A stretch of 64,000 bases of DNA from the NCBI RefSeq assembly GCF_026672425.1, contig NZ_JAPPRC010000003.1, forward strand, positions 788,501 to 852,500. The letters are read 5' to 3'. This DNA comes from Pannonibacter sp. SL95. Its GTDB lineage: Bacteria > Pseudomonadota > Alphaproteobacteria > Rhizobiales > Stappiaceae. Below are positions 31,401 to 45,080 of this stretch, piece after piece (position 1 is the first letter of the stretch; the number at the start of each line of letters is the position of its first letter). A program made the translations under genes and the position numbers. The notes below the pieces were generated by a model. It was not told the DNA's origin. It did not search any database and saw only the letters and a list, made by a program, of their open reading frames with translations.

Positions 31401-31417
31401 GGCTCGTGGGTACGCTG

Positions 31418-32254
31418 ATGACTGATATGACGCCGCAAAGGACCGGGGAGACGAGGGACGTCGAGCTCGAAGGGCTGCCCCGGTGGGTTTACAAGCTGAT
31501 CCTCGGGATCATGCTGCTGCTGGCTGTCCTGAGTTTGCCGCAGGTTGCAACACAATGGCTGGCTTGCTCTTGGCCTTGGTTCTGGCAACCCATCACTGGG
31601 CCAGAGATCGCTCCTGGGTGTCTCGCCCTCAACGAGTTTGGCGACTTGCTCGCCGGTGCCTTTGCGCCTCTGGCATTTGGTGGTCTCATCTACACTGTCC
31701 TCATGCAACGCGATGAGCTCAGGGCACAGCGCCGCGAGCTGAAAATCAGCCAGGACATAGCATCTGAACAGCGCACGGCGATGGAGGAGCAGCAAAAGGC
31801 GCTCGCCCTACAGGCCAGCATCATGGAACAAACGGCGCGGCTGACCAATGAACAGGAAGCACGCCGAGACCTCGACACATTCGCAAGCATGATCCGGCAG
31901 ATGATTAGCTCGTTTGGCGGTCGTGTCGAGCAAACCCGCGCCCTGTCAGATCTAGAGTTTATACGACGATACATCGGTAACGCCATCGCACCCATTCGGA
32001 GTTTGACCGGGGCCGCCGAGAACGGAGGCACTGTTTATATGGACAACGTGCATAGCGATGCTATGAAACTGGCCTCTGAACTTGACGAGAATTTCCTCCA
32101 GCAGCTTGACCTGTTGAACGAACGATTGAGTGCGCCAGACCGACTTTTGTTTGCTCAGTATCGAATGACCGAATTTGCGCAGGCAGTTCGAGGCTTCCAA
32201 AAAGCACTGATGCAAAAGACCCAGCAGTCGGAAGACGCTTCGAGCAAGACGTGA
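31418..32254 (+). CDS. Membrane protein with coiled coil, putative exclusion/abortive-infection factor
   Basis: The 278-residue product has two membrane segments (LILGIMLLLAVLSLPQVA at about 27-44; DLLAGAFAPLAFGGLIYTVL at about 74-93), a long coiled coil (about 97-150, QRDELRAQRRELKISQDIA onward) and a helical C-terminus. This is the layout of AbiC-like and related phage exclusion proteins, but no diagnostic motif identifies a family. Start ATG 31418 has GTGGG upstream; GTG 31406 is also in frame. It lies at the prophage right end, the usual place for such genes, and overlaps the next gene by four bases. Confidence 0.6.
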   Translation: MTDMTPQRTGETRDVELEGLPRWVYKLILGIMLLLAVLSLPQVATQWLACSWPWFWQPITGPEIAPGCLALNEFGDLLAGAFAPLAFGGLIYTVLMQRDELRAQRRELKISQDIASEQRTAMEEQQKALALQASIMEQTARLTNEQEARRDLDTFASMIRQMISSFGGRVEQTRALSDLEFIRRYIGNAIAPIRSLTGAAENGGTVYMDNVHSDAMKLASELDENFLQQLDLLNERLSAPDRLLFAQYRMTEFAQAVRGFQKALMQKTQQSEDASSKT

Positions 32255-32499
32255 CAGGGCTCATATCGCTTACCACCCTCGGCGAATTGAAATCTCACGG
32301 CTACCGGCTGTTCGGGCACTGCGGCAGACTTAGCTGCGGCCGGGGCCGGGAGCTTGATATTGACAACCTGATAAAGCGGTACGGAGCGAACTACAGCATC
32401 ATAGGAGACACACGGATCAAAAGGGCACTTGTCTGCACGGGCTGCGGCCACAAAGGCGGCTCGCTCACCATTGCCGGCCCGAACCTGCCGAAACCATAG
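32251..32499 (+). CDS. Small zinc-ribbon-like protein
   Basis: The 82-residue product starts at GTG 32251, overlapping the previous stop. It has a CGRLSCGRGRELDIDNLIKRYG segment (shown here by key residues C-x4-C and DLIxRYG-like DNLIKRYG) and CTGCGHKG near the end. Four cysteines spaced as a split zinc ribbon suggest a metal-binding regulator. It is the last gene before the candidate prophage terminus. Confidence 0.6.
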   Translation: MTGLISLTTLGELKSHGYRLFGHCGRLSCGRGRELDIDNLIKRYGANYSIIGDTRIKRALVCTGCGHKGGSLTIAGPNLPKP

Positions 32500-32551
32500 C
32501 CGTGTCAAAGAGCCTTCAAACACGCTTCGAAGCGAATATGATCAAAGGGCA
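32500..32551. repeat. Candidate prophage right terminus
   Basis: Read inward from 32551 on the minus strand, the sequence begins TGCCCTTTGATCATATTCGC and then contains GAAGCGTGTTTGAAGG, i.e. the TG start and short direct motifs expected at a Mu-type transposase-bound end. Exactly at 32551 the DNA changes to a stretch similar to 43204-43240 inside the neighbouring island, which supports a junction here. The left end is not in the window, so matching termini and the 5-bp target duplication cannot be checked. Confidence 0.5.
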
Positions 32552-32628
32552 ATGCTGCAAAACCAAGCGGCAAATTTGCAAAAAGTCGCGGCGGGCTACA
32601 CCGGATCAAGGTATTGGCAAGGATATTG
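32552..32628. other. Relic between prophage and island, similar to island gene 43132-43395
   Basis: Bases 32551-32589 resemble 43204-43240: AATGCTGC, eight diverged bases, then identical GCGGCAAATTTGCAAA and GTCGC. In one frame both encode NAA, three varying residues, GKFAKS. The remaining 39 bases to attL show no recombinase sequence. This looks like the remains of an earlier related element whose recombinase gene has been lost. Confidence 0.45.
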
Positions 32629-32643
32629 GGTGGTAGCGGAGGA
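32629..32643. repeat. attL of the tRNA-Met island (15-bp core)
   Basis: GGTGGTAGCGGAGGA is identical to 45002-45016, the 3' end of tRNA-Met (including the encoded CCA) plus two bases. The flanks differ on both sides. It marks the distal end of the 12.4 kb island. Confidence 0.85.
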
Positions 32644-32748
32644 CCGCTCCAATCGATCCCCCCATGTTGAAACCCCCTTATTTTCTTTCAAAGTTTTCAT
32701 ACCCCGACAGTCCCCGAACTACCGCCGTAGCTTCGAGGAGCGTCAACG

Positions 32749-33921
32749 ATGAATGCGCGAGTGGAGATAGACGGGAAAACGGCATCCCCCGTCACGGTCG
32801 CTCGTCTTTTGGCGAAGCGGCTGGAAAACTTGGGCATAAATCCGTATCAGTCCGAGAATGACCGTTACCTCGTTCTTCTGGAGGATGCGCCAGGCGAAGT
32901 GATTGAAATGGGACGTCCCCTTAAGGGAACCCGCTTCTTCAAGTCCGAAGCCCTAAAGCGAGATGTCCAGACCGTTAGGGATATCGAAGTCTTCGCTCGG
33001 GAGGCTGGAGCTTCTGATTGGCTATTTTGGAACGTTGGCCTTACGGGCGCTAAAGCGTCAGTCGACGGCCTTTGCGAAGCCATGACGGATTTCAATCGTC
33101 GGATAAACATTGATTTCAGCGAACTGAGAAAAAAGCACGGCTTTGAGCTGATCCTGATTGCGATACATCCTCGATATGATGCGGTGAGTGGTCAGTTTGA
33201 CCTCCATGCCCATTTCATTTGCCGGATACCGCCAGAGCAGCGTGAAGCCGCGCGACGACGCTTGATGTCGAAGTTTTCGAAGGTCGACCTGCCGGATGAC
33301 ATGGTTCGAAATCCGGCGGCGTGTTCCACTTACATGCTTTGGGGCATCTATGATCCGAAGGAGCTACTCACCTGGCCAGACAGGCCGTTGATGGCCGCGT
33401 GGGAGTTGGCGCAGTCAAGGGCTCGCCTCGTGCGGACGGGCGGTGGCTTCGCGTTGTGGAAGCGCTCCCGCCACGACCCGGCGCAAGAGGCGAGTGCGCG
33501 CGAGGAACGCGCGCGTCGGCGTGCCAATCGTGAAGCGACGAAGGACCCACGGAAAGGGCAGCTTTCGGGGGATCGTTTTCTTGCAAAAATTGTGGCGAGG
33601 ATAAGAGGGAAAATGGTCCGTGCAGCCCTTTGGCAAAGTGGGAAGGCCGTCCTTGGCCAGCGCCCTGATAACTACACTTCAGCGGCTTGCGGCATAACTC
33701 AGGACCAGACCGCAAAGCCCTCCAAGACGCCTAAAAAGTCGGCTTTTACGTTGGTTTGGAGGACCGTACGGCTACAGCTTCAGGATTTCGGCTGCAAAGT
33801 CAGCAAACAGTGCGGGCCCCATCTACGGGCTGTTTCTGGGGCTTTGATGCGGTGGCGGGAAGAAGCACTGGAACGCCTGCGACGGTCATTCTTCAGATTG
33901 CGCGACCGGACCCGAGAGTAG
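32749..33921 (+). CDS. Rolling-circle replication initiator (HUH endonuclease)
   Basis: The 390-residue protein carries the HUH metal site as FDLHAHFICRI with His153 and His155, preceded by a motif-1-like strand LFWNVGLTGAK (92-102) and followed by STYMLWGIY (193-201), where Tyr195 or Tyr201 could be the nicking residue. The C-terminus is basic. It would nick a double-strand origin and start rolling-circle replication of the excised element. ATG 32749 has GAGGAG eight bases upstream. The ATG overlaps TGA 32750-32752 of a frame that enters through attL, which matters for the circular form. Confidence 0.75.
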   Translation: MNARVEIDGKTASPVTVARLLAKRLENLGINPYQSENDRYLVLLEDAPGEVIEMGRPLKGTRFFKSEALKRDVQTVRDIEVFAREAGASDWLFWNVGLTGAKASVDGLCEAMTDFNRRINIDFSELRKKHGFELILIAIHPRYDAVSGQFDLHAHFICRIPPEQREAARRRLMSKFSKVDLPDDMVRNPAACSTYMLWGIYDPKELLTWPDRPLMAAWELAQSRARLVRTGGGFALWKRSRHDPAQEASAREERARRRANREATKDPRKGQLSGDRFLAKIVARIRGKMVRAALWQSGKAVLGQRPDNYTSAACGITQDQTAKPSKTPKKSAFTLVWRTVRLQLQDFGCKVSKQCGPHLRAVSGALMRWREEALERLRRSFFRLRDRTRE

Positions 33922-34010
33922 CGCATCAGTAGACGGTTTTCCCGCAATTCCACGATCAGTATTGCCGAGGCGGAACTCCATCTGCCGAGGAAAAAGGAAT
34001 GAGAGAATCC

Positions 34011-34277
34011 ATGAAATCAATCTATCGCTTCTATCGAAAGGAAGTCGTCACGTGTGACGACTATGCCGAAGCGGCCCAAGCTGGACGCTTGATGCTTGGG
34101 CAATATGTCTACATTCATGAACTGGAAAAGACCGTCCGTTTCCTTGGGACGCTCGGCGGGAACATCATGACACTTTATACTCACAAAGCTGATCCGGGCG
34201 CGCAGCGCCTTCTGAAGTCACGAGCGTTGGAACTGTCCCGGTATAACCGTACCAGGAAGGCTATTGCCGGATCTTGA
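34011..34277 (+). CDS. Small hypothetical island protein
   Basis: The 88-residue protein (MKSIYRFYRKEVV...) is basic and has a mixed alpha/beta pattern with YVYIHELEKTVRFLG. Start ATG 34011 is chosen; ATG 33999 is in frame, and an AAGGAATGAGAG stretch fits either. Its 3' end overlaps the convergent resolvase gene by 17 bases. No family is recognised. Confidence 0.5.
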   Translation: MKSIYRFYRKEVVTCDDYAEAAQAGRLMLGQYVYIHELEKTVRFLGTLGGNIMTLYTHKADPGAQRLLKSRALELSRYNRTRKAIAGS

Positions 34278-34881
34278 CGACACGTTCACCGTCAGGGCGG
34301 AGTGATCCGTCAGGCGCAACATGTCGGTAAAGCGTCTGCCGGGAAACGCCGAGTTCTTTGCAGAGTTCCGCGACCTTTGTCTCTGGCTGACCCATCGCTG
34401 CCTGAGCCAACCGCACTTTCGAGGCTGTGAGAGAATGTTTCCGTCCGCCGACACGACCGCGGGCACGGGCGGACGCTAGCCCGGCTTTTGTTCTTTCGCG
34501 GATCAAATCTCTTTCGAACTCTGCTAGAGACGCAAAGATGCCGAACATCAGTTTTCCTGACGCGGTTGATGTGTCAAGTTGCCCGTGTCCGGTCAGAACA
34601 CGGAAACTGACATCGCGTTTTGCGAGATCGTCAACAGTAGTCACGAGATGGCGAAGGTCTCGTCCGAGGCGGTCGAGTTTCCACACCACCAGCGTGTCAC
34701 CAGGGCGGAGTGCTTTCAGACAAGCTTCGAGGCCGGGACGGTCATCTCGTTTCCCGGACGCATGATCTTCATAGATTCGATCAGGATGGACACCTGCTTC
34801 AATGAGTGCATCGTGCTGAAGATCCGTCGTCTGACTTCCGTCGGCCTTGGAAACGCGCATGTACCCGATCAACTCACCCAT
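34261..34881 (-). CDS. Serine resolvase/invertase (Tn3/Hin type)
   Basis: The 206-residue protein is a small serine recombinase: IGYMRVSKADGSQ with catalytic Ser11, LDRLGRDLRHLV, FGIFASLAEFERDLIRERT and a C-terminal helix-turn-helix (KVAELCKELGVSRQTLYRH). ATG 34881 has GGAG six bases upstream. It is divergent from a palindrome at 34892-34921 that is its likely binding site. It could resolve dimers of the circular element or cointegrates. Confidence 0.92.
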   Translation of the reverse strand: MGELIGYMRVSKADGSQTTDLQHDALIEAGVHPDRIYEDHASGKRDDRPGLEACLKALRPGDTLVVWKLDRLGRDLRHLVTTVDDLAKRDVSFRVLTGHGQLDTSTASGKLMFGIFASLAEFERDLIRERTKAGLASARARGRVGGRKHSLTASKVRLAQAAMGQPETKVAELCKELGVSRQTLYRHVAPDGSLRPDGERVVKIRQ

Positions 34882-34891
34882 CAAAATCTCC

Positions 34892-34921
34892 TTGTCTCAC
34901 AAACGGTCGTTTATGAGACAA
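34892..34921. promoter_or_regulatory. Resolvase-binding palindrome (res subsite)
   Basis: The 30-base imperfect palindrome has arms TTGTCTCACAAACG and CGTTTATGAGACAA around GT, with one mismatch. It begins 11 bases upstream of the resolvase start, the position of subsite I in Tn3-type res sites, and would let the resolvase repress itself. The gap to 35192 contains CACAA-rich degenerate half-sites but no gene. Confidence 0.7.
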
Positions 34922-35192
34922 ATGGTGAATCGAGAATTCCGTCGGCGCAAGTTGTCACACAACCCGTCACGTTATCTTTGTTCCACAAATCAGCAGTCAG
35001 TCAGTTTTGAGCGTCGGTACTTAAAATCTTCGGCTTCCGATTACCACCGCAGGAAGGTTCTCTTGCTATGCGCAGGGTAAGGCATCAGTCTGGTAAAGAT
35101 ATTCTCATCGGTCGGCAGTTTATCGGCTTAAAACAGGATGGTGTCATTCCTGACCCGTAGATCTACAAGGTCAGCCCATTTCCCCACAGGGA

Positions 35193-36254
35193 TTAATCGG
35201 CCTCAGCTTTTCGACGTTCGTATTCGGCCTTGGTTTGTTTGGAGCCAACAACTTCGATGAATGTGTCGGGTTCACGTTGAAAGAATTCTTTTATTCCAAT
35301 GCGGCCCTGTTCAAAATACTTGACCCGTTTGGTCAATTCATCGCAGCTAGTATGTCGCCCATCGCCATTCGGGCTATCCCAATAGCCAAGGTGATCCGCT
35401 GCTTTTTTCAGATGGGTCGGGGACCACGGTATCCGGTGCCAGAATGTTCGCTCAATATCGGGACGGAGTGCGCGGACAGAGGTCAAAGGAAGAGCTGGCT
35501 TACGCGGGTCTTTATCCGAATGAGTTGTCAGTCTTACCGATCCCTTGATTTCATATGCAGGAGCCCCCTTGTCTTCGACGAGTCGAGCCCGATCTATGAT
35601 GTTGAGCGATTTGGCAGCGTCTTCGGGGATGTAAAGGGTGGTGTTATCACCCGCCTTCCCGAAGGCATGCGCATCGGCAATTGCCACGCGTTCGAAGCCG
35701 ATCTCTTGCGCTCTGGAAAGTAAGCCGAGAATTGAGTTTCGTATCGCGTCATCCCGCCTTTCCATGATGGCGCGAAACTCTTCTCCGGTTGCCGGGAGGG
35801 ATTGGCCCGCTCGCCTGTAGTAAACGGCTCCTTGTGCGAGAACTGGCTTATTTCGTCCATTCTCCATCACTTGACAATCTCTGATCGCCAAGATGGGGGG
35901 GAGGGTTTTCTTTTTCACGGTGACCAGCACCAGGTGAAGTCCCGCGAGCTCGGCGTCTTCGACCTCAAGGTCGGGAGCAGGTGTCAGATGTTGTGAAATT
36001 ATATTATCGAGTACTGCCGCGTCGGGAACCTGTGCCCTGTCAATTCCACATATCTGCCGATTTCTATCCGTCACACCGAACACGATCTGCCCACCAGCGG
36101 TGTTCGAAAATGCCGCGATGGTTTTCAGGCACTTTTTGAACGCCGCTTCATCGCAGAATTGTTTGAATTCAAGATCACGGCGTTCTCTGGAACGGACCTT
36201 TAACGTGCCATCCGCAAGGGTTTCAATTTCGATGATGTCGGCAATTTCCACCAT
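35193..36254 (-). CDS. Schlafen/AlbA_2-domain protein (putative defence factor)
   Basis: The 353-residue protein has the AlbA_2 (Schlafen) domain in the first 150 residues: RDLEFKQFC (27-35), AAFSNTAGGQIVFGVTDRN (47-65) and AVYYRRAGQSLPAT. The C-terminal part (about 180-350) is unclassified and charged. AlbA_2 proteins can be nucleases or nucleic-acid binding regulators and often lie in defence regions. It is divergent from the type III modification gene across a 208-base AT-rich gap holding both promoters. Cooperation with the restriction system is inferred from position only. Confidence 0.8.
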   Translation of the reverse strand: MVEIADIIEIETLADGTLKVRSRERRDLEFKQFCDEAAFKKCLKTIAAFSNTAGGQIVFGVTDRNRQICGIDRAQVPDAAVLDNIISQHLTPAPDLEVEDAELAGLHLVLVTVKKKTLPPILAIRDCQVMENGRNKPVLAQGAVYYRRAGQSLPATGEEFRAIMERRDDAIRNSILGLLSRAQEIGFERVAIADAHAFGKAGDNTTLYIPEDAAKSLNIIDRARLVEDKGAPAYEIKGSVRLTTHSDKDPRKPALPLTSVRALRPDIERTFWHRIPWSPTHLKKAADHLGYWDSPNGDGRHTSCDELTKRVKYFEQGRIGIKEFFQREPDTFIEVVGSKQTKAEYERRKAEAD

Positions 36255-36462
36255 TCCTATGGGTCTCTTAGATCCAGCCGTTTTTCACTTTTGGCGCACT
36301 GATTTCAGGAGCATCCGCAGCATTTATCCACGATTCTCGTTCAGATTGCATGATGTTTTAGTTCGCCAATTTATGTAGATCGTCTGCTGGTCCGCGAATC
36401 TGAAAACCGTGTTAAGGGACCTAGGTGCTGGAAGTTCAAGATTGCGCAAATAGGTGGAGCAG

Positions 36463-38268
36463 ATGACCGAGCTGAATTTCAAGGGCAAGGAATTTGTCTA
36501 CAACCACCATCTGGGCGTGCCCTTCCGTCCGCTCGTGCCGCATGCGGACAAGGGGGTCGGGCCGGTTTCGCTCGACGGCAACCTGATCATCCAAGGCGAT
36601 AACCTGCACGCCTTGAAGGCGCTTTTACCGCTCTATGCGGGCAAGGTAGACTGCATTTTCATCGACCCGCCTTACAACACGGGGAACGAGGGCTGGAGTT
36701 ATAACGACAACGTCAATGCTCCGATGATCCGCGAATGGCTGGAATCCAATCCTATTGGGATAGAAGACGGTCTACGCCACGACAAGTGGTGCGCGATGAT
36801 GTGGCCCCGTCTGCGTCTGTTACACGAACTGTTGGCAGAGGAAGGCTCGCTCTGGGTGACCCTCGATAACAATGAGGTGTCCAACGCCATCGCACTTTTG
36901 GACGAAATTTTTGGACAAGTTAATCGGGTTGAAGTCTGCATCTGGCAGAAGAACTATTCGCCGAAACCTTCTGCCAAGCACTTCTCCTCAGATCACGATT
37001 ACGTCTTAGTTTACGTCAAGAACAAAGACCGTTGGGGCATAAACCTACTTGGCCGCACCGACGAGATGAATGCTAGATATTCCAATATCGACAATGACCC
37101 ACGTGGTCCTTGGAAGCCGGGTGATTGCTCTGCTCGAAACTATTACAGTGAGGGAACCTACCCAATTAAGTGCCCTGGCGGGCGGGTTCTAAGTGGCCCC
37201 CCTTCAGGTCGATATTGGACAGTTTCCGAAAATAATTTCTGGAAGGCGGATAAAGACAAAAGAGTTTACTGGGGGGATGACGGGAACAACATACCAGCGT
37301 TCAAGCAATTCCTTTCCGAGGTGAAGGACGGACGCGTCCCGCAAACGTTGTGGTTTTACAATGAGGTTGGGCACACACAGGACGCCAAAAAGGAGATCAA
37401 CAACATCATGTCGTTTGAAGAGACCGCTGATGTCTTTGTTACTCCAAAGCCGAAAGACCTTCTTTTGCGGGTGCTGGAACTCGCGACCAAACCTGACTCC
37501 ATCATCCTCGACTCTTTCGCCGGGTCTGGTACTACCGCCCATGCCGTCCTCGAAGCCAACAAGCGCGATGGCGGTAGCCGCCGGTTCATACTTGTCGAGA
37601 TGGAGGACTATGCCGACAAGTTAACAGCCGAACGCGTCCGGCGAGTGATTAATGGCTATAGTTTTAAGGGCACTCAAAAAACAGAGCTTCTGCGGGATTC
37701 GCTAAACTGGACCAAGTTGAAGAAGGCTGACAAGCTAACTGAAAGCGTGGCGGCAATCGAGAACCTTCACGGGCATGAATACGACCGCATCAAAAAGGAA
37801 GTGAAGGAAGGAGAACTTATCGTCACCGGTGAAAAGACCGTTGATGAGAAGGCCGAGGGGCTGGGTGGGGAATTCACCTACTGCACCCTTGGCGAGCCAG
37901 TCGAGTTGGACAAGGTGCTGAGCGGTGAGGCGCTGCCGCCTTATGCCGGGCTTGGCGCGGCTCTGTTCCACATGGCAACCAATCGAGCGCTTGACCCTGC
38001 TGCTGTTCGCGAGGCCGACTTCTATCTCGGGGCGACCGAGGGCCAGCATGTCTGGCTGATCTACAGGCCCGATCTGGAATGGCTGAAGACGCCGGAGGCC
38101 GCTCTGACCCTATCGCGGGCTAAGATGTTTGCCACCACCGACCCACACAAGCGGCACTTGGTCTTCGCCCCTGCCCGCTATGTCAGCCAGAAGATGCTCG
38201 CCGAGCAGAACATCCCCGTCGAGTTCGTGCCGCTTCCCTTCGCCCTCTACCGCATCGACCGGAGCTGA
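36463..38268 (+). CDS. mod: Type III restriction-modification methyltransferase (Mod)
   Basis: The 601-residue beta-class adenine methyltransferase has the catalytic motif DPPYNTG (68-74) before the SAM motif SFAGSGTTAHAVL (about 352-364), and a target-recognition region between them. It modifies one strand of an asymmetric site and is needed by Res for site recognition. ATG 36463 follows AGGTGGAG; GTG 36454 is in frame. Both ends of the gene are GC-rich, while about 36900-37850 is more AT-rich, a sign of a swapped recognition domain. Res follows after five bases. Confidence 0.92.
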   Translation: MTELNFKGKEFVYNHHLGVPFRPLVPHADKGVGPVSLDGNLIIQGDNLHALKALLPLYAGKVDCIFIDPPYNTGNEGWSYNDNVNAPMIREWLESNPIGIEDGLRHDKWCAMMWPRLRLLHELLAEEGSLWVTLDNNEVSNAIALLDEIFGQVNRVEVCIWQKNYSPKPSAKHFSSDHDYVLVYVKNKDRWGINLLGRTDEMNARYSNIDNDPRGPWKPGDCSARNYYSEGTYPIKCPGGRVLSGPPSGRYWTVSENNFWKADKDKRVYWGDDGNNIPAFKQFLSEVKDGRVPQTLWFYNEVGHTQDAKKEINNIMSFEETADVFVTPKPKDLLLRVLELATKPDSIILDSFAGSGTTAHAVLEANKRDGGSRRFILVEMEDYADKLTAERVRRVINGYSFKGTQKTELLRDSLNWTKLKKADKLTESVAAIENLHGHEYDRIKKEVKEGELIVTGEKTVDEKAEGLGGEFTYCTLGEPVELDKVLSGEALPPYAGLGAALFHMATNRALDPAAVREADFYLGATEGQHVWLIYRPDLEWLKTPEAALTLSRAKMFATTDPHKRHLVFAPARYVSQKMLAEQNIPVEFVPLPFALYRIDRS

Positions 38269-38273
38269 GCGCC

Positions 38274-40868
38274 ATGTTCCGCCAGCTCGACTATCAGGAC
38301 AGCGTGCTGAACACACTCGACGCCTACCTCGACCTTCTGAAGGCGAAGAAGAAGGAGGCGGACGAAGTCGCAGAGCTTGCGGCGCTGAAGCCGCACCTCA
38401 AGCTGCCGATCCCCGACTTCGCCAAGGAGGCATGGGACGCGCTCAAGGCCGATGGAAAGCTGCCGGCTTCGCGCACCGCCATCCCGTTCTCCGAACGGAT
38501 GGACGGATGCGACAGGCCTGTCCCCAACGCCGTACTGAAGGTGCCGACGGGCGGCGGAAAAACCTGGCTTGCAGTGACCGGCGTGTCCCGGATTATGGGC
38601 CGGTATCTCGACCGCAACACCGGCTTTGTCCTCTGGGTCGTGCCGAACGAGGCGATCTATACCCAGACCCTCAAACGGCTGAAGGACCGCCAGCACCCCT
38701 ACCGGCAAGCGCTCGACCGCGCCGCCGCCGGGCGTGTGCGGATCATGGAGAAGACCGACCGCCTCGATGCCCGCGACGTCGAAACGAACCTCTGCGTCAT
38801 GCTCCTGATGCTCCAATCCTCGAATCGCGAGAACCAGGACTCCCTGAAAATGTTTCAGGACCGGGGCGACGTGCACGGCTTTTTCCCGGCCGAAGGCGAG
38901 CAGCAGGCCCATAAGGCCGCGCTCGACCGCACACCGAACCTCTCCGCCTATACCGGCATGTTCCCCATGGTGAAGGACTCGCTCGGGAATGCGCTGCGGA
39001 TCATCCGGCCCGTCGTCGTGCTGGACGAAGGGCACCGCGCGATTTCTGACCTCGCCTTCCGCACGCTCTATGGCTTCAACCCGTGCTTCGTGCTGGAGCT
39101 GACGGCGACGCCGCAGGACGTGCAGCCCAAGGGTGGAAAGACTCCCAAGCCAGGCCGGTACGCCAATGTTCTGGTCGAGGTGACGGGGCGCGAGCTGGAC
39201 CGCGAGGGCATGATCAAGATGCCCCTCAACCTCGACCCGAGGCAGGGAAACGACTGGAAGGCGACGCTCAACGCGGCGCTCGCCAAGCTCAACGCATTGG
39301 ACGCCGATGCGCGCAAGCTCCGGTCGGAGACCAACCGCTATATCCGGCCGATCATGCTGATCCAGGTCGAGCGCACCGGGGCCGATCAGCGCGAAAGTGG
39401 CCATATCCATGCCGAGGACGTTAAGGACTGGCTTCTGACGGCGGGCTTCGACGCAGCCGAGATCGCCATCAAGACGGCGCAGCAGAACGACCTGAACGAC
39501 CCCGAGAACCAGGATCTTCTGTCGCCCACCAACCGGGTGCGCGCCATCATCACCAAACAGGCGCTTCAGGAAGGCTGGGATTGCCCCTTCGCCTATGTGC
39601 TCTGCGGCCTTGCCGCGAGCACCAACCTGAAGGCCATGACGCAGCTCGTCGGCCGAATCCTGCGCCAGCCGCATGCCATGAAGACCGGGATCGACACGCT
39701 CGACGAATGCCACGTCATCACCCACCACGCCGCCACCGCCGATGTAGTGGGCGCGATCAAGGAAGGGCTGGAGCAGGACGGGCTTGGCGACCTGGTCCTT
39801 CAGGTTGCGCAGGGCGATGGCAATGGGAGTGTCAATGTGAGCCGGACGATCGACCGCCGCCCGGCCTTCTCCAAGACGGACATCTATCTGCCCAAGGTCA
39901 TGATCGTGGAGGAAGGCGCAGCGCGGGACCTGGACTACGAGACGGACGTGCTGTCCGCCATCGACTGGCGCGGCTTCGACCCCAAAGACATCGTGTCGCG
40001 CATTCCCGAGAACGCGCAGGCGGCCGAAAGCCAGCTCCAGCGCATCCGGCTTGCCGATGACGGCGACGAGTTGTTCGTCGGGGAGGCCGTCGCGGAGAAT
40101 TCCGAAACTCTCGCCTTCGACCCTGCCCATGCGGTGCGCATGGTGTCCGACATCGTGCCAAACCCCTTCGTCGGCCGCGAGATAGTTGGTCGGCTCCTGG
40201 ACGGGCTGCGGGCGCGGGGCTTCGACGACGGGAAGCTGGGTATGCTGGCGAGCCTGATCGTCGAAGAGCTGCGCAAGGGCCTCGATGCCGCGCGCCATGC
40301 CCGGGCAGAGGCGCTATTCAAGGCCGAAGTCGCTGGTGGACGCATCCAGTTTCGCCTTCGCCTTGACGGCCGGAACTGGCGGATGCCGTTCAGCATGGAG
40401 ACCACTGAGCCTGAGAACGCTCGCCAGCTCCTGAGCAAGACGGGCGGGCCGCTGGAGAAAAGCCTCTTCGCGCCCGTATACGAGGCCGAGCTGAATACCG
40501 ACGAGCGCGAAGTGGCCGTCTATCTCGACGGGGAACAGGCGCTGGCGTGGTGGCATCGGAACGTCGCCCGGACCCAATACGGCATTCAGGGGTGGCGGAA
40601 GGCCAAAATCTACCCGGACTTCATCTTCGCCGTTCAGGGCGAGGGAAGCGCCAAGCGCATCACCGTGCTGGAAACCAAGGGCGACCAGCTCGACAATCTC
40701 GACACGGCCTACAAGCGTGAAGTTCTGTCGTTCCTGTCGAACAATTTCACTTGGGATGAGCACGTCCCATCTGGCGAGTTGGAGCTTGTGAAGAATAACG
40801 GGGAGACCGTGCAAGCCACGCTCATACTAATGAGCGAATGGAAGGCGAAATTGCCCGGTCTGCTGTGA
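38274..40868 (+). CDS. res: Type III restriction endonuclease subunit (Res)
   Basis: The 864-residue protein is a superfamily-2 helicase-nuclease: Walker A VPTGGGKT (90-97), DEGH box VVLDEGHRAIS (about 247-257), motif III LTATPQD, motif VI LVGRILRQPH, and a C-terminal PD-(D/E)xK nuclease with PDFIFAVQG and VLETKGDQ. It translocates or diffuses from unmodified sites and cuts about 25 bases away. It is GC-rich and host-like, unlike the mobilisation genes. Coupled to mod with five bases between. Confidence 0.92.
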   Translation: MFRQLDYQDSVLNTLDAYLDLLKAKKKEADEVAELAALKPHLKLPIPDFAKEAWDALKADGKLPASRTAIPFSERMDGCDRPVPNAVLKVPTGGGKTWLAVTGVSRIMGRYLDRNTGFVLWVVPNEAIYTQTLKRLKDRQHPYRQALDRAAAGRVRIMEKTDRLDARDVETNLCVMLLMLQSSNRENQDSLKMFQDRGDVHGFFPAEGEQQAHKAALDRTPNLSAYTGMFPMVKDSLGNALRIIRPVVVLDEGHRAISDLAFRTLYGFNPCFVLELTATPQDVQPKGGKTPKPGRYANVLVEVTGRELDREGMIKMPLNLDPRQGNDWKATLNAALAKLNALDADARKLRSETNRYIRPIMLIQVERTGADQRESGHIHAEDVKDWLLTAGFDAAEIAIKTAQQNDLNDPENQDLLSPTNRVRAIITKQALQEGWDCPFAYVLCGLAASTNLKAMTQLVGRILRQPHAMKTGIDTLDECHVITHHAATADVVGAIKEGLEQDGLGDLVLQVAQGDGNGSVNVSRTIDRRPAFSKTDIYLPKVMIVEEGAARDLDYETDVLSAIDWRGFDPKDIVSRIPENAQAAESQLQRIRLADDGDELFVGEAVAENSETLAFDPAHAVRMVSDIVPNPFVGREIVGRLLDGLRARGFDDGKLGMLASLIVEELRKGLDAARHARAEALFKAEVAGGRIQFRLRLDGRNWRMPFSMETTEPENARQLLSKTGGPLEKSLFAPVYEAELNTDEREVAVYLDGEQALAWWHRNVARTQYGIQGWRKAKIYPDFIFAVQGEGSAKRITVLETKGDQLDNLDTAYKREVLSFLSNNFTWDEHVPSGELELVKNNGETVQATLILMSEWKAKLPGLL

Positions 40869-40939
40869 GCCGGAAGGCGCAAACGCGTTGCATTCGGGAT
40901 TCACACGAACTCCTGACAAGTCATTCAAACCCTTGAGGA

Positions 40940-40967
40940 CCCGGCTGCTAATGCGGCCGGGCTTTTT
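40940..40967 (+). terminator. Rho-independent terminator after res
   Basis: Arms CCCGGC and GCCGGG with a ten-base loop are followed by CTTTTT. It lies 72 bases after the res stop. Confidence 0.8.
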
Positions 40968-41084
40968 GTGTCCACAGGACGGTTGTGGCCGGTGATCTGA
41001 GGGCTCACGGTTCAGTTAGTGCGTGGTCACGAAGTGAAGGGCGAAAAGGGAGTTGCCAGCCATGCGGACGTGGCCCGCAGCAGG

Positions 41085-41107
41085 CCAGGGGGCTTTGGCC
41101 CCCGTGG
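41085..41107. other. Hairpin upstream of mobC, candidate part of oriT
   Basis: CCAGGGGGC and GCCCCCGTGG pair around TTTG just before mobC. Transfer origins usually lie directly upstream of mobC/relaxase genes and contain such hairpins next to the nick site. The nick itself is not identifiable. It might instead be only a transcriptional hairpin. Confidence 0.3.
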
Positions 41108-41125
41108 ACCCCCGGAGAGAAGCAG

Positions 41126-41404
41126 ATGCGTCAAGACACCATCATCAAATTTCGCGCGACCAGCGCAGAGAAGGCGCGTCTTCATGCGGCTGCCGAGCGG
41201 TCCGGCCGGACGGTTTCCGCACTTCTTCGCAAGGCAGCATCGGAGGCGGCAGCCGGTCGGCAGATTGATCGCCTTCTTCACGAGGACTTAGTCGCCCTGC
41301 GCCGGTCTCTGAACACTCTCTTGGCTGATGACGGCATGAGGTCGCGGGAAGCCTTAGACAGCGCTCGGAAAATCACAACGCGCGTTTTGGCGAGGGTCCC
41401 GTGA
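41126..41404 (+). CDS. mobC: MobC-like relaxosome accessory protein
   Basis: The 92-residue protein begins with a ribbon-helix-helix-like segment (IIKFRATSAEKARLHAAAER, then GRTVSALLRKAA) and a helical tail, the layout of MobC proteins that bind oriT and help the relaxase nick. ATG 41126 has GGAGAG upstream; the longer open frame lacks a site. It overlaps the relaxase by four bases (GTGA), as in other mobilization operons. Confidence 0.8.
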   Translation: MRQDTIIKFRATSAEKARLHAAAERSGRTVSALLRKAASEAAAGRQIDRLLHEDLVALRRSLNTLLADDGMRSREALDSARKITTRVLARVP

Positions 41405-42906
41405 TCCTGAAGGCTCATCGTGTTAGCACCCGTAAGGGGATCAAACGCCTCCTTCGACATCTCGTCCATGGCGATGAAAATGAACGCGTGGCGTTCATCC
41501 AAGGGACAGAAGCAGACGTTTCCGACATGCACGCTGATGCAAGGGCGAACGAGAGCAAATTTTGCGTCCGGCATTGGATCATTTCTCCGCATGAGAGCAT
41601 GTCAAATGACCAGGTCCGTTCTTTTCTCAGGAAATTGGCGGGGGAGTTTGGCTTCGACATCTCTGCTGCGGTTGTTGTCGAACATCAAAAGCCACGGGCT
41701 GTGACCTCCGCTTTTGATCGGCATTGGCATGTCCTGGTAGGTGAAGTCGATCCGATATCCGGTCGGGTTTTGTCGTCGTCGTATGATCACGTTCGACACG
41801 AGCTAATAGCTCGATGGTCTGAGCACGAGTTTGGGCATGAATTCGTACACGGACGACATTCAAAAGCTGTTCTGGCGGGTCTGGTTAAACGTGGCCTCAA
41901 CGATGTCGCTAAGGCGCTGGCAAGCTTCATTGCAACGAACACCACGTTGCCGCGCGAAGGTTTCACCCATGCACAGCATCAAGAATGTAAGCGGAGGGGA
42001 ATCGATCTCCCCGCGCTTCGAGCCGTTGTGAAAGATATTTGGGCCTCGGCGTTGTCACTACAGGAATTAAGGGATGCGTTCGGCTCCCACGGGATGGCGA
42101 TCGAGGTCGGAGATAAACCGGGCACTTGGATCGTCCAAACGCAGGAAGGAAAGCTGGTAGGGGCGCTGCATCGGCTTGCGGGTGTTCGAAAGCGTATTGC
42201 TGCGGATTTTATGTCGTCGCAGGTTGATGTCGTGAGAACCGCCGGAAATGACGCGGGTGAGAAGGACTCCACACTCAAGGGTGTCCCGGCATTGGACCTT
42301 AAGCGCCAAAAAGCCGATGTTTTGCGCAAGCTTGACCATCTTGAGGAGCAACTGCATGTGGAACTGTCTGCCCCGCTGCCTCCTCGTCCCGAGCCAATCT
42401 CACCGAAGGAATTTGCCAAGAAAGAGAAGCACGCCTCAGATGCTCTGACGAAGGCTCAGGTCGCTCAGGACGAGGCTTGGAAGCAGGTTCAGCGGAACCC
42501 GAAACCGAGCTGGTGGTGGGCATTATGGCCGGGGAAACGAAAGCGCATGGCGGCAAAGTCGGCGGCTCTTGCTCAAGCCTTGGCGGTTGCAGATATTGCT
42601 GTTCAAGCGAAGCAACAGCTTGTCGCGAATGTGCATTTTGAACGGCGAAGAGAACTTCGACTGGCCAACGCAGAATACAAGAAGAGGCTGTCCGCACATG
42701 ATCGACGTGAGAAGCTCGCCAGAGAACGACTGTTCGTTCTGGAAGCGATGCGAGATATTCTTGCCAATGATCCAGGCGCTGTTTCCAAAGGCTTTGAAGT
42801 GCTTTGGAGGCAGGCAGAACAAAGCCTGCAAAGCGCTGATGACGACGATGCGACCGACGAGGCTGTATTCGACCTTGAAGCGACAACCTATCCACTCAGA
42901 AACTGA
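41401..42906 (+). CDS. Relaxase/mobilization nuclease
   Basis: The 501-residue protein has a relaxase N-terminus: RHWIISPHESMSNDQV (about 58-73), and FDRHWHVLVGEVD with the His-x-His metal site (about 108-112), then a long coiled-coil C-terminus (about 290-480). It would nick oriT, bind the 5' end and lead the strand into a helper conjugation system. Start GTG 41401 overlaps mobC. Composition is less GC-rich than the host. Confidence 0.85.
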   Translation: MILKAHRVSTRKGIKRLLRHLVHGDENERVAFIQGTEADVSDMHADARANESKFCVRHWIISPHESMSNDQVRSFLRKLAGEFGFDISAAVVVEHQKPRAVTSAFDRHWHVLVGEVDPISGRVLSSSYDHVRHELIARWSEHEFGHEFVHGRHSKAVLAGLVKRGLNDVAKALASFIATNTTLPREGFTHAQHQECKRRGIDLPALRAVVKDIWASALSLQELRDAFGSHGMAIEVGDKPGTWIVQTQEGKLVGALHRLAGVRKRIAADFMSSQVDVVRTAGNDAGEKDSTLKGVPALDLKRQKADVLRKLDHLEEQLHVELSAPLPPRPEPISPKEFAKKEKHASDALTKAQVAQDEAWKQVQRNPKPSWWWALWPGKRKRMAAKSAALAQALAVADIAVQAKQQLVANVHFERRRELRLANAEYKKRLSAHDRREKLARERLFVLEAMRDILANDPGAVSKGFEVLWRQAEQSLQSADDDDATDEAVFDLEATTYPLRN

Positions 42907-43025
42907 GAACTTCTGAGAGGGGGAATTGTCAACAATTTGATTCCCTTGGATTTTTTCGCGCCGTTTATCAAAAAAAGTTCTTGCAGGTTTCGTGAAATGA
43001 CGACAGCATTTTTGTTGTTGGGGGG

Positions 43026-43080
43026 TTGAACGGCGTTCGTTCAACTCCCAGCCGGTTCGGGAAGGTGAGGTAAATCACCC
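43026..43080. promoter_or_regulatory. Inverted repeats in the recombinase-operon leader
   Basis: The 225-base gap 42907-43131 contains two dyads: GTTGAACG and CGTTCAAC five bases apart (43026-43046, perfect), and GGTGA/TCACC six bases apart (43065-43080). They sit where operators of the recombinase operon would be. No clear -35/-10 pair was identified. Confidence 0.4.
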
Positions 43081-43131
43081 GCGTCTGTCGGCGGTCTCCC
43101 CGAGTTCGTAGATCGTCGACGGCGCGGGAGA

Positions 43132-43395
43132 ATGAGCGGAAACGTGAAATCTGATAAGCACGGGGCGGCTACGAAGATTGTCTTCGAAAAGCCCACATCA
43201 ATGAATGCTGCGGTAGCCGGCGGCAAATTTGCAAAGTCGCAAAACTCTGCGGCGGAACACCGAACACCAGTTGCGTGCCTAGATGCAGCGGCAACGTGTC
43301 CACAGGTGCATCCAGCAGGCGTTCCTCTTTCGGAACTGGCTGCTGCTTTTGGGCGCTCGCTTGCGCGGCTTCACCTGGTAGATGTCAGAAGTTGA
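43132..43395 (+). CDS. Small protein translationally coupled to the serine recombinase
   Basis: The 87-residue protein (MSGNVKSDKHGAATK...) has a basic N-terminal half and a C-terminal helix LSELAAAFGRSLARLHLVD. Its TGA overlaps the recombinase ATG (TGATG at 43393-43397), so the two are coupled; a recombination directionality factor or accessory protein is possible, on position only. A related fragment lies outside attL (32551-32589). Start is GTG/ATG-ambiguous; ATG 43132 is used. Confidence 0.55.
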   Translation: MSGNVKSDKHGAATKIVFEKPTSMNAAVAGGKFAKSQNSAAEHRTPVACLDAAATCPQVHPAGVPLSELAAAFGRSLARLHLVDVRS

Positions 43396-45047
43396 TGGGG
43401 GGCGATTTGGCGGAACGTGCATTTTTTTATGGGCGCTATTCCCATGAAGATTCGACAGACAAATCCATTGCAGATCAGGAGGCCTCTTGCATGCGCTATG
43501 CGGCCTCCATTGGCGCTACGATTGAGCGTCGGTACACTGACCACGCTTTGTCGGGTGCCACCATGTTTAATCGTCGTGGTTTGAATACCCTGTTGACTGA
43601 ACTTGAGCACGAGAGACCAAGCCTCCTGATCGTCGATCATCTGGACCGCCTGACCCGCGATGAAGGCGACATGGCCGTCATTTTTCGACAATTGGCGTTC
43701 AACGGTATCGTTTTGCATTCTGTTGCTCATGGAAAGGTGGATCGAAACACAGCTGCGATCCTTGCGATTGTTGGGCGTAATCAGCTTGAGAGCACCGGGC
43801 ATGCGGTAAAACGCGGACAACAGGGACAGGTAAGAGCAGGAAAAAGCGCGGGCGGTCGCCCTTACGGCTATCTGCTCGTCGGACGAAATGGAGAGCTTCA
43901 GCCTGATGAAGGTGATGCTATGCAGCCCGGGGAGGCGGTGATTGTTCGTCGGATCTTTAAAGAAAGGCTCGAGGGGCGGTCTCCCCGCGATATCGCGGCA
44001 CGATTGAATGCCGAATGCATTCCCGCACCGCGCGGTAAACGCTGGAACGCTTCTACTTTGAACGGCTCACGATCACGTCGGAACGGCATCCTTAGGAACG
44101 CCATCTATCACGGAATTCGGGAATGGAATCGCGTTTCTATGGTGCGTCATCCGCAGACCGGAAAGCGGATATCGCGTCCGAATGATGACGATGCGGTTGT
44201 TCGGATTGAAGTTCCCGAATTGGCGATTGTTTCATCTTGTGACTTTGAAGCGGTACAGCGCTTGTTTCCGAAAGACAGGGAAGTCCGTCCTGAGCGTTTT
44301 CGCAGAGCCAAGACCCTGCTTTCTGGCCTTTTGCAGTGCGGCTGTTGCGGTGGAGGGCTTTCAATGAAGGACAAATCGAACGGACGCATCAGAGTTCAAT
44401 GTTCGACGATGAAAGAGTCGCGTTCGTGTGACAATCGTTCGGCCTTCTATCTCGATGAATTGGTTGAGGCGGCTTTCGGCGGTTTGCGACAACATTTGAA
44501 GCAACCGGATTTGATCGTCGAAGTTGTCAAGGCTTACAACGTCGAAAGAACTCGATTGGCTGAAGACACTGTCGAGCAGGTTCGAATACTTGAAAAGAAA
44601 CTCGGCATTTTACGGGCGCGAGAAAAGCGTGTTTGGGATGACTACGATGCAGGCATGTTCGGAGCCGAAATCGCAAATCCACGTCTTGCCGACATAAGGG
44701 CCGAGATCAAAGCCATTGAAGCCGAACTTGTCGCTCTCCCACCGTTGCCGGAAAACGTCGCGGTGCACCCAGGAGCGATCAAGGAGTTCGCAAGGTACGT
44801 CGAAGAGTTATTGCAGACATTTCACATCCAAATAACGGACGAGAACCGTGAAGCAGCGGAAGCGGCCCGGAAGCTGGTCCAGAAGGTAGTTGTTACACCG
44901 ACTGACACAGGCACAGAAGTTGAGGTCTTCGGAGCCGTTGGCCTTCTTGTCGAAGCAACAAAGGACCTGTCCGACTCAAATGACAACAGGTTGGGGGGAA
45001 TGGTGGTAGCGGAGGAGGGACTCGAACCCCCGACACGCGGATTATGA
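43395..45047 (+). CDS. Large serine recombinase (integrase of the island)
   Basis: The 550-residue protein has a resolvase domain with catalytic Ser16 (FFYGRYSHED), the LDRLTRDEGD segment, a Recombinase domain (PYGYLLV; DIAARLNAECIPAPRGKRW), a zinc ribbon (LLQCGCCGGGLSMKD then CSTMKESRSC) and a coiled coil (about 440-490). It catalyses integration and excision between attP and tRNA-Met. ATG 43395 is coupled to the preceding gene; the longer frame is shadow. The last residues VAEEGLEPPTRGL are antisense tRNA sequence, so they are supplied by the target site after integration. Confidence 0.93.
   Translation: MGGDLAERAFFYGRYSHEDSTDKSIADQEASCMRYAASIGATIERRYTDHALSGATMFNRRGLNTLLTELEHERPSLLIVDHLDRLTRDEGDMAVIFRQLAFNGIVLHSVAHGKVDRNTAAILAIVGRNQLESTGHAVKRGQQGQVRAGKSAGGRPYGYLLVGRNGELQPDEGDAMQPGEAVIVRRIFKERLEGRSPRDIAARLNAECIPAPRGKRWNASTLNGSRSRRNGILRNAIYHGIREWNRVSMVRHPQTGKRISRPNDDDAVVRIEVPELAIVSSCDFEAVQRLFPKDREVRPERFRRAKTLLSGLLQCGCCGGGLSMKDKSNGRIRVQCSTMKESRSCDNRSAFYLDELVEAAFGGLRQHLKQPDLIVEVVKAYNVERTRLAEDTVEQVRILEKKLGILRAREKRVWDDYDAGMFGAEIANPRLADIRAEIKAIEAELVALPPLPENVAVHPGAIKEFARYVEELLQTFHIQITDENREAAEAARKLVQKVVVTPTDTGTEVEVFGAVGLLVEATKDLSDSNDNRLGGMVVAEEGLEPPTRGL
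45002..45016. repeat. attR core within tRNA-Met
   Basis: Identical to attL 32629-32643. It covers the last 13 bases of the tRNA gene and two bases beyond it, so integration keeps the tRNA complete on the right side. Confidence 0.85.
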
Positions 45048-45080
45048 TTCCGCTGCTCTAACCAACTGAGCTACTCCGCC
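45004..45080 (-). tRNA. tRNA-Met(CAT), elongator
   Basis: The minus strand reads GGCGGAGTAGCTCAGTTGG at the 5' end, an anticodon arm GCGGA-ATCATAA-TCCGC with CAT, a T arm with GGTTCGAGTCC and an encoded CCA. The G1 start and stem differ from initiator tRNA (CGCGGG) and tRNA-Ile2. Acceptor stem pairs fully with one G-T. It is the integration site of the island. Confidence 0.96.

Follow-up and report, generated by a model that had tools for sequence, protein, structure and literature searches.

Predicted joining of a serine recombinase gene to a rep-like gene on the circular form of a tRNA-Met-borne element of Pannonibacter sp. SL95

Background

Excision of the haloarchaeal provirus SNJ2 joins its integrase gene to replication genes, and the resulting operon, demonstrated with mutants and by transcript mapping, exists only on the circle (PMC13107129). 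Circularization of Tn916 lets transcription from the other end reach the DNA-processing genes, including those for rolling-circle replication (PMC11658703). Mycobacteriophages with integration-dependent immunity, whose integrases are of the tyrosine type, carry the phage attachment site (attP) inside the repressor gene, use a tRNA gene as target and exhibit ssrA-like tags (PMC9262239, PMC9934374). These papers provide precedents both for operons built by excision (SNJ2, Tn916) and for protein tails swapped through attP (mycobacteriophages). Here we describe an element in a 64,000-nt stretch of the Pannonibacter sp. SL95 genome (contig NZ_JAPPRC010000003.1, positions 788,501 to 852,500; hereafter the window, whose coordinates are used throughout). 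Its large serine recombinase (LSR) gene appears to contain attP and would, on the excised circle, run into the start of a rep-like gene.

Integrative and mobilizable elements (IMEs) of the serine-recombinase type possess a single serine recombinase, a relaxase and short direct repeats; in the available part of the same source, tRNA 3' ends are the targets of tyrosine-type elements and site-specific serine-type ones disrupt dispensable genes (PMC5704250). In work on Paracoccus phages, one active phage is noted whose serine recombinase lies at tRNA-Met (PMC6536676). In the open-licence literature, no description was found of a serine integrase gene that encloses attP and gives a tail dependent on the state of the element, a negative that is weak for this reason, and the available parts of PMC5882170, PMC6109161 and PMC10654092 hold nothing bearing on a state-dependent integrase tail.

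The predicted circular junction

The tRNA-Met(CAT) gene at 45004-45080 (minus strand) is the integration target of a probably mobilizable insertion of 12,373 bp (32644-45016). Two plus-strand copies of the core GGTGGTAGCGGAGGA mark its ends: one at 32629-32643, of which 13 bp (32631-32643) duplicate the tRNA 3' end, and one at 45002-45016, at the tRNA 3' end itself. The 15-bp repeat named in a first-pass annotation of this DNA is thus present in the window, whereas the core shared with the relative G070 (see below) comprises only 13 bp (TGGTAGCGGAGGA) and is exactly the tRNA 3' end; the two additional G bases are peculiar to the window insertion.

In the integrated state the LSR open reading frame (ORF; 43395-45047, plus strand, with a start codon of our choice) ends ...VVAEEGLEPPTRGL at 45047. 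Its last 10 residues, EGLEPPTRGL, are encoded by the tRNA beyond the core, and the rep-like gene lies 12 kb away, both as the first-pass annotation had stated. Its claim that the recombinase frame stays open through the core on the circle, giving a longer C-terminus, is borne out by the joined sequence: ...VVAE continues DRSNRSPHVETPLFSFKVFIPRQSPNYRRSFEERQR, the full join reads ...VVAEDRSNRSPHVETPLFSFKVFIPRQSPNYRRSFEERQR*, and the frame runs 35 further codons past the core. This extension (RSNRSPHVETPLFSFKVFIPRQSPNYRRSFEERQR plus TGA; 32645-32752, plus strand), joined to the recombinase only on a circle or in tandem, stops at a TGA (32750-32752) that overlaps the ATG of the rep-like gene (32749-32751) as ATGA (32749-32752), again as claimed.

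The base composition gives an open frame of 35 codons a chance probability of 0.30, and openness alone is unremarkable. Between the window and G070, 13 of the 105 bases of the extension differ, distributed 2/3/8 over the three codon positions. In the recombinase frame the proportion of synonymous differences (pS) is 0.318 (8 differences, 25.2 sites) and that of nonsynonymous differences (pN) 0.063 (5 differences, 79.8 sites), a synonymous excess with a Fisher p of 0.002 (site numbers rounded); in both other frames pN exceeds pS. Only in the recombinase frame are the differences mostly synonymous, and the peptide encoded across the junction is therefore probably translated and under selection. 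Chance or a frame accident, considered as the origin of the extension, is rejected in view of these coding-type substitutions. The recombinase frame of the window extension contains no ATG, GTG or TTG, and that of G070 only one GTG, near its end. Selection on the peptide therefore points to translation from the recombinase across a circular or tandem junction.

Independent support for the junction comes from the ends of the element, which carry the two halves of one inverted repeat centred on AGGA. In the window these are 32644-32668, within the first codons of the extension, and 44988-45012, which lies in the core and the final codons of the recombinase (both plus strand); they agree at 7/9 and 10/16 positions, with an eight-base run equidistant from the centre. 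Because the search pattern described below fixes part of the core half, matches were counted outside it: over 18 end pairs, the 16 positions just beyond the core half give 192 matches in 288 comparisons, and positions 26-45 give 77 in 360 (summed counts). Three of the pairs are those of the window, G070 and G081; the other 15 come from 14 of the 17 genomes with tRNA-encoded recombinase ends (below). Recombinase and tail were paired on the assumption that those found in one genome form a unit. The ends thus exhibit an inverted-repeat attP with a short shared core, as known for serine integrases, and a match between halves that stand 12 kb apart is as expected of an attP split by integration.

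Relatives of the element

Among 87 genomes of the same family, the window's own included, 16 match the recombinase with an E-value of at most 1e-30 and three match the rep-like gene: the window's own, G070 with an intact gene, and G005 with fragments. G070, 82% identical, is the one intact relative found with the rep-like gene. Its element, 15.9 kb long, occupies the same tRNA with the 13-bp core and has a backbone in common with the window element, namely the left end with rep, the resolvase, the mobilization genes and the recombinase; no similar DNA was found between these shared parts. The predicted G070 circle reads VAEDRSNRSPHIENPLFSFRVFIPRQSPNYRRSFQVRQR* with the same frame, the same 35-codon length and the same ATGA overlap. 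The decayed G005 retains a core-like sequence, a stretch reading SPNYRRSSFEERQR and a CGATGA overlap; its recombinase frame is broken further upstream and its rep is also broken (all read by eye). The first-pass annotation had named as a check whether relatives keep the frame open to rep: the one intact relative does, and the decayed one has kept the overlap. Judged from these sequences, a coupling of rep to the circle that is conserved in one intact relative is plausible.

The left 1,064 bp of the element (32644-33707) are 88.6% identical to G070, compared with 78-80% for the remaining shared parts; by this difference the left end, which holds rep and perhaps an origin, would be unusually conserved or more recently exchanged. 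In G010, a genome of the same genus, a homolog of the window left flank lies 33 nt ahead of a core and tRNA 3' part with no interruption. A 45-nt tRNA-Met 3' fragment stands near this left-flank homolog (L153:1905-1949), in a locus with no whole tRNA, and is possibly the footprint of another element.

Tails across the recombinase family

A pattern composed of the core and the first attP bases matched 72 stretches in genome_contigs and 12 in viral_contigs, some of them by chance. Several of these 84 matches resemble chance hits inside unrelated genes (e.g. L067, L094, L133). With three more loci, 87 loci, a few of them duplicates, were read in the recombinase frame. Tail lengths to the stop are 28 codons in 22 loci, 17 in 14, 23 in 8 and 24 in 7. 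The 22 loci that share the 28-codon stop position include 21 distinct ones. At more than 30 nt from the core, this group exhibits 241/290/886 differences by codon position, 63% of them at the third (column-shuffle P 5e-5, 18 tails); three divergent tails were dropped from this comparison, and with these kept the counts become 666/731/1396.

The recombinase was found at E 1e-60 in 21 of the 27 genomes examined (behind 30 of the loci). The tRNA-encoded end VAEEG(L/F)EPPT(R/Q/P)GL is present at 17 of 25 LSR loci, spread over 17 genomes, and in these same genomes a second core carries an in-frame tail. Of 18 recombinase loci taken from the initial search of the family, 13 have tRNA-Met next to them. 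Nine distinct database records were matched (RR1-A, deposited twice, was counted once), and four were examined. In Rhizobium phage RR1-A (NC_021560.1) and Microcystis phage Mae-JY30 (PP438422.1), the annotated integrase coding sequence (CDS) crosses a variant core into a tail. In the circular records of two plasmid-borne relatives, L183 (Methylocystis) and L184 (Mesorhizobium), the recombinase is also read across the core. An LSR gene spanning attP thus looks like a family trait. Because phage and plasmid-borne recombinases run across the core into the tail, the long form appears to be the full-length native one and the integrated form the altered one. The longer C-terminus that had been predicted for the circle is supported, but it is probably no oddity of this circle: it looks like the full-length form of the family. 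L183 ends ERLEPPRGGRCV and L184 ends EGYRQFTAATEFVC, the first of which resembles a continued tRNA-type end.

Eleven matches are recombinase ORFs running through the core, with no tRNA in these loci. Some are probably junctions between tandem elements and not native attP sites, since the tail type goes elsewhere with another recombinase type; weight is therefore placed on the phage records and on the integrated pairs. Contig NZ_JANKOF010000022.1 carries two different attP-type cores, L122 and L124, and the L122 recombinase enters a tail type that elsewhere accompanies another type of recombinase, a pattern suggestive of two elements in tandem and of a hybrid C-terminus of the recombinase. Related recombinases (L009, L010, L013 and L016, from G076, G033, G007 and G067) stand at a second tRNA-Met type with the 3' end TGGTTGCGGG..., that of G033 ending VAGAGFEPATFRL; the attP-in-gene arrangement may occur at this tRNA-Met type also. 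At L130/L180 (G482), an 860-aa (amino acid) open frame joins the recombinase to a downstream protein via the core, in a frame other than that of the usual tail. The shortened recombinase of L176 (G468) ends VAEVRYRRSPRQQEPVFSLEIEQINVA, which is not the tRNA-encoded end, and an apparent attP-type junction there exhibits a variant core and an Ala end.

For the counts of tail ends and downstream genes given below, we chose 36 tail loci with 35 distinct tails, namely the 11 core-crossing loci and 25 from genomes with the recombinase. They include L079 and L118, whose genomes' recombinase does not end at the core tRNA; the loci of the 6 of 27 genomes without a recombinase match were left out, as were L087 and L120, with recombinases elsewhere.

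The rep-like protein

The gene at 32749-33921 (plus strand) encodes a putative replication initiator of 390 aa. HUH nucleases are recognized by a His-hydrophobic-His motif and a catalytic Tyr. In the rep-like protein, FDLHAHFI and Y195 align with FDPHAHAI and FYVAAG of a homolog in G091 (30% identity over 154 residues), for which no plasmid match and no significant Pfam match were obtained. By these motifs the protein would fit an HUH nuclease. The name "rep" of the first-pass annotation therefore draws on a His-x-His motif and a conserved Tyr, with no significant family match beside them.

The only PHROGs matches (E 0.045 and 0.097) are to families of unknown function. No homologs were found in plasmids or phages. 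Among 84 pattern matches in genome_contigs and 31 in viral_contigs none was confirmed; two peptide patterns were used for each, and distant homologs may escape such a search. A match is present in 3 of 397 genomes of the order, the window's own included and one being a distant homolog, and in 1 of 385 genomes of the class, the window's own only. A single-sequence structure model (predicted local distance difference test, pLDDT, 39) was too poor for use.

Other genes of the element

A 92-aa ORF without assigned function follows rep (33999-34277, plus strand). Next to it is a small serine resolvase (PF00239; 34261-34884, minus strand), for which similar DNA is present in G070. The cargo consists of a Schlafen/AlbA_2 domain protein (35193-36254, minus strand) and, on the plus strand, a type III restriction-modification methyltransferase (36454-38268) and a type III restriction enzyme (38274-40868); G070 has no similar DNA at the place of the type III pair (36454-40868). 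A NikA-like mobilization protein (PF21983; 41123-41404, start codon again of our choice) and a MobA/VirD2-like relaxase (PF03432; 41401-42906) follow on the plus strand. The LSR exhibits the Resolvase catalytic (PF00239), Recombinase (PF07508) and zinc beta ribbon (PF13408) domains above cut-off. The element thus possesses both its own integrase and relaxase/mobilization genes, and no type IV secretion apparatus was seen among the ten element proteins scanned, smaller ORFs being outside the scan. It is probably an IME with attP inside the 3' end of its own LSR gene.

Discussion

We consider it moderately probable that the recombinase and rep-like genes form a pair only on the circle, with rep made mainly there and the form of the enzyme depending on the state of the element. 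On the circle that excision is predicted to generate, the recombinase gene would be whole, would cross the inverted-repeat attP and would end in the extra 35-residue tail. The stop of this tail would overlap the rep-like start, and one mRNA could serve both genes. ATGA overlaps commonly couple translation, and the putative initiator would probably be translated by reinitiation. Integration at tRNA-Met would cut the recombinase gene at attP, replace the tail by EGLEPPTRGL from the tRNA and leave rep 12 kb away, behind a flank. The recombinase would thus take different forms in the integrated and circular states, and rep would be made mainly in the circular state, after excision or on arrival in a recipient.

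Several observations weigh against such a coupling. The rep overlap is known from only one intact relative. Pfam and NCBIfam give no match to the putative initiator, nor do PDB sequences at E≤1. An open frame from the left flank (32429-32752) also runs into the window extension, although it depends on the insertion. In the 36 other tail loci, some of which hold little downstream DNA, there is one 4-base overlap, at L069, with an unconvincing 113-aa ORF that lacks a family match; at L142 a 121-aa ORF begins 10 nt past the stop of the tail. Rep has its own Shine-Dalgarno-like GAGGAG (32735-32740, plus strand), 8 nt ahead of the ATG; G070 has CAGGTG there. A promoter-like site occurs in the left flank on the strand of rep (32515-32542; 1 found, 0.2 expected), and with these two sites rep could be expressed while integrated. 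In the recombinase region none was found (1.0 expected, by a scan that suits alphaproteobacteria poorly).

A rep overlap as a rule of the family was considered and is rejected, L069 being the only 4-base overlap among those loci; as far as these sequences go, only the window lineage has the gene overlap. It is possible, if somewhat doubtful, that the tail swap itself is the selected feature, acting on the stability or directionality of the recombinase, and that the rep overlap is a compact-genome accident of one lineage. The tails are family-wide and the rep overlap is not, and the tails exhibit features of their own. Of the 35 distinct recombinase-linked tails, 22 end in Ala and 9 in Ala-Ala, whereas Ala accounts for 5.6% of the other tail residues. 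The tmRNA tag of the host, ANDNYAQDVALAA, ends ALAA, and the tails of RR1-A and Mae-JY30 end VA and IAA. In an eight-sequence model of the viral-contig recombinase L145 the tail has a pLDDT under 50, as flexible tails show. In the available account of mycobacteriophages, integration strips an ssrA-like tag from the repressor (PMC9262239). Together, these Ala ends, the host tag, the low-pLDDT tail and the repressor parallel suggest by analogy that the tail may be an ssrA-like degron removed by integration. However, the window tail ends EERQR and that of G070 QVRQR, residues other than Ala close 13 of the 35 tails, the core-crossing plasmid-borne relatives end GRCV and EFVC, and the tails share ancestry and are not independent.

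That rep is expressed while the element is integrated, driven by a promoter of its own or one in the flank, and that the overlap has no regulatory role, seems unlikely to us. The GAGGAG and the flank promoter-like site favor this reading, as does an ORF of the left flank (31406-32254) that points the same way as rep. Against this, the ATGA overlap is retained in G070 and in the decayed G005, and flank promoters would vary with the insertion. That the extension is open merely through conservation of attP DNA, of which its first ~25 nt are an arm, or by a chance of 0.30, is very improbable. Substitutions are of the coding type between the window and G070, and past the arm they are so in other tails too; the stop position is shared by 22 loci (21 distinct), and phage integrase CDSs are annotated through the tail.

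Beyond the circle-only gene pair of the window, we tentatively propose a wider picture. A clade of serine integrases of alphaproteobacterial integrative and conjugative elements, mobilizable elements and phages may be built around attP, integration rewriting the C-terminus: the free form would have an ssrA-like or otherwise active tail, and in the integrated form the tail would be encoded by the tRNA. Such a state-dependent switch would govern integration or excision; in the window lineage, the extended tail would couple translation of the replication gene to the circle. A tail swap is a simple idea of how an integrase could tell free from integrated DNA. Recombinases of this clade predicted from integrated copies would have tRNA-derived ends and miss their native C-terminus, which is relevant for their use as expressed tools.

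Among the closest known systems are the integrases of RR1-A and Mae-JY30, 36-37% identical to the window recombinase, whose CDS crosses the variant core with TGGTAGCGG shared; the Mae-JY30 tail begins RSNPSP and that of the window RSNRSP. Unlike the window element they belong to phages, with shorter tails and no rep overlap (the next gene of RR1-A is on the opposite strand, and the Mae-JY30 record ends at the stop). With mycobacteriophage immunity, as far as the available accounts go, the window has in common an attP within a gene, a tRNA target and a C-terminus changed by integration; there attP lies in the repressor gene, whereas here it lies in a serine recombinase gene and the tail is without an Ala end. 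The element resembles serine-type IMEs, as described in the section available, in its single serine recombinase, relaxase and short repeats, and differs from them in targeting a tRNA 3' end. Expression that depends on the circle would be shared with Tn916, which uses transcription with terminators and antitermination and for which the available part of the paper describes no protein tail crossing the attachment site (PMC11658703).

As in SNJ2, the integrase and a rep-like gene meet on the same strand of the predicted circle (PMC13107129). In the available description of SNJ2 a new ORF, separate from the integrase gene, spans attP, whereas here the recombinase frame itself crosses attP and overlaps the rep-like gene. 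SNJ2 is an archaeal virus with an 11-ORF operon and a Rep of Rep_trans-like fold, and the present case is a bacterial element with a serine recombinase. If our reading is correct, replication operons built by excision, which have been tested in an archaeal provirus, would also occur in bacterial mobile DNA and with recombinases of the serine type.

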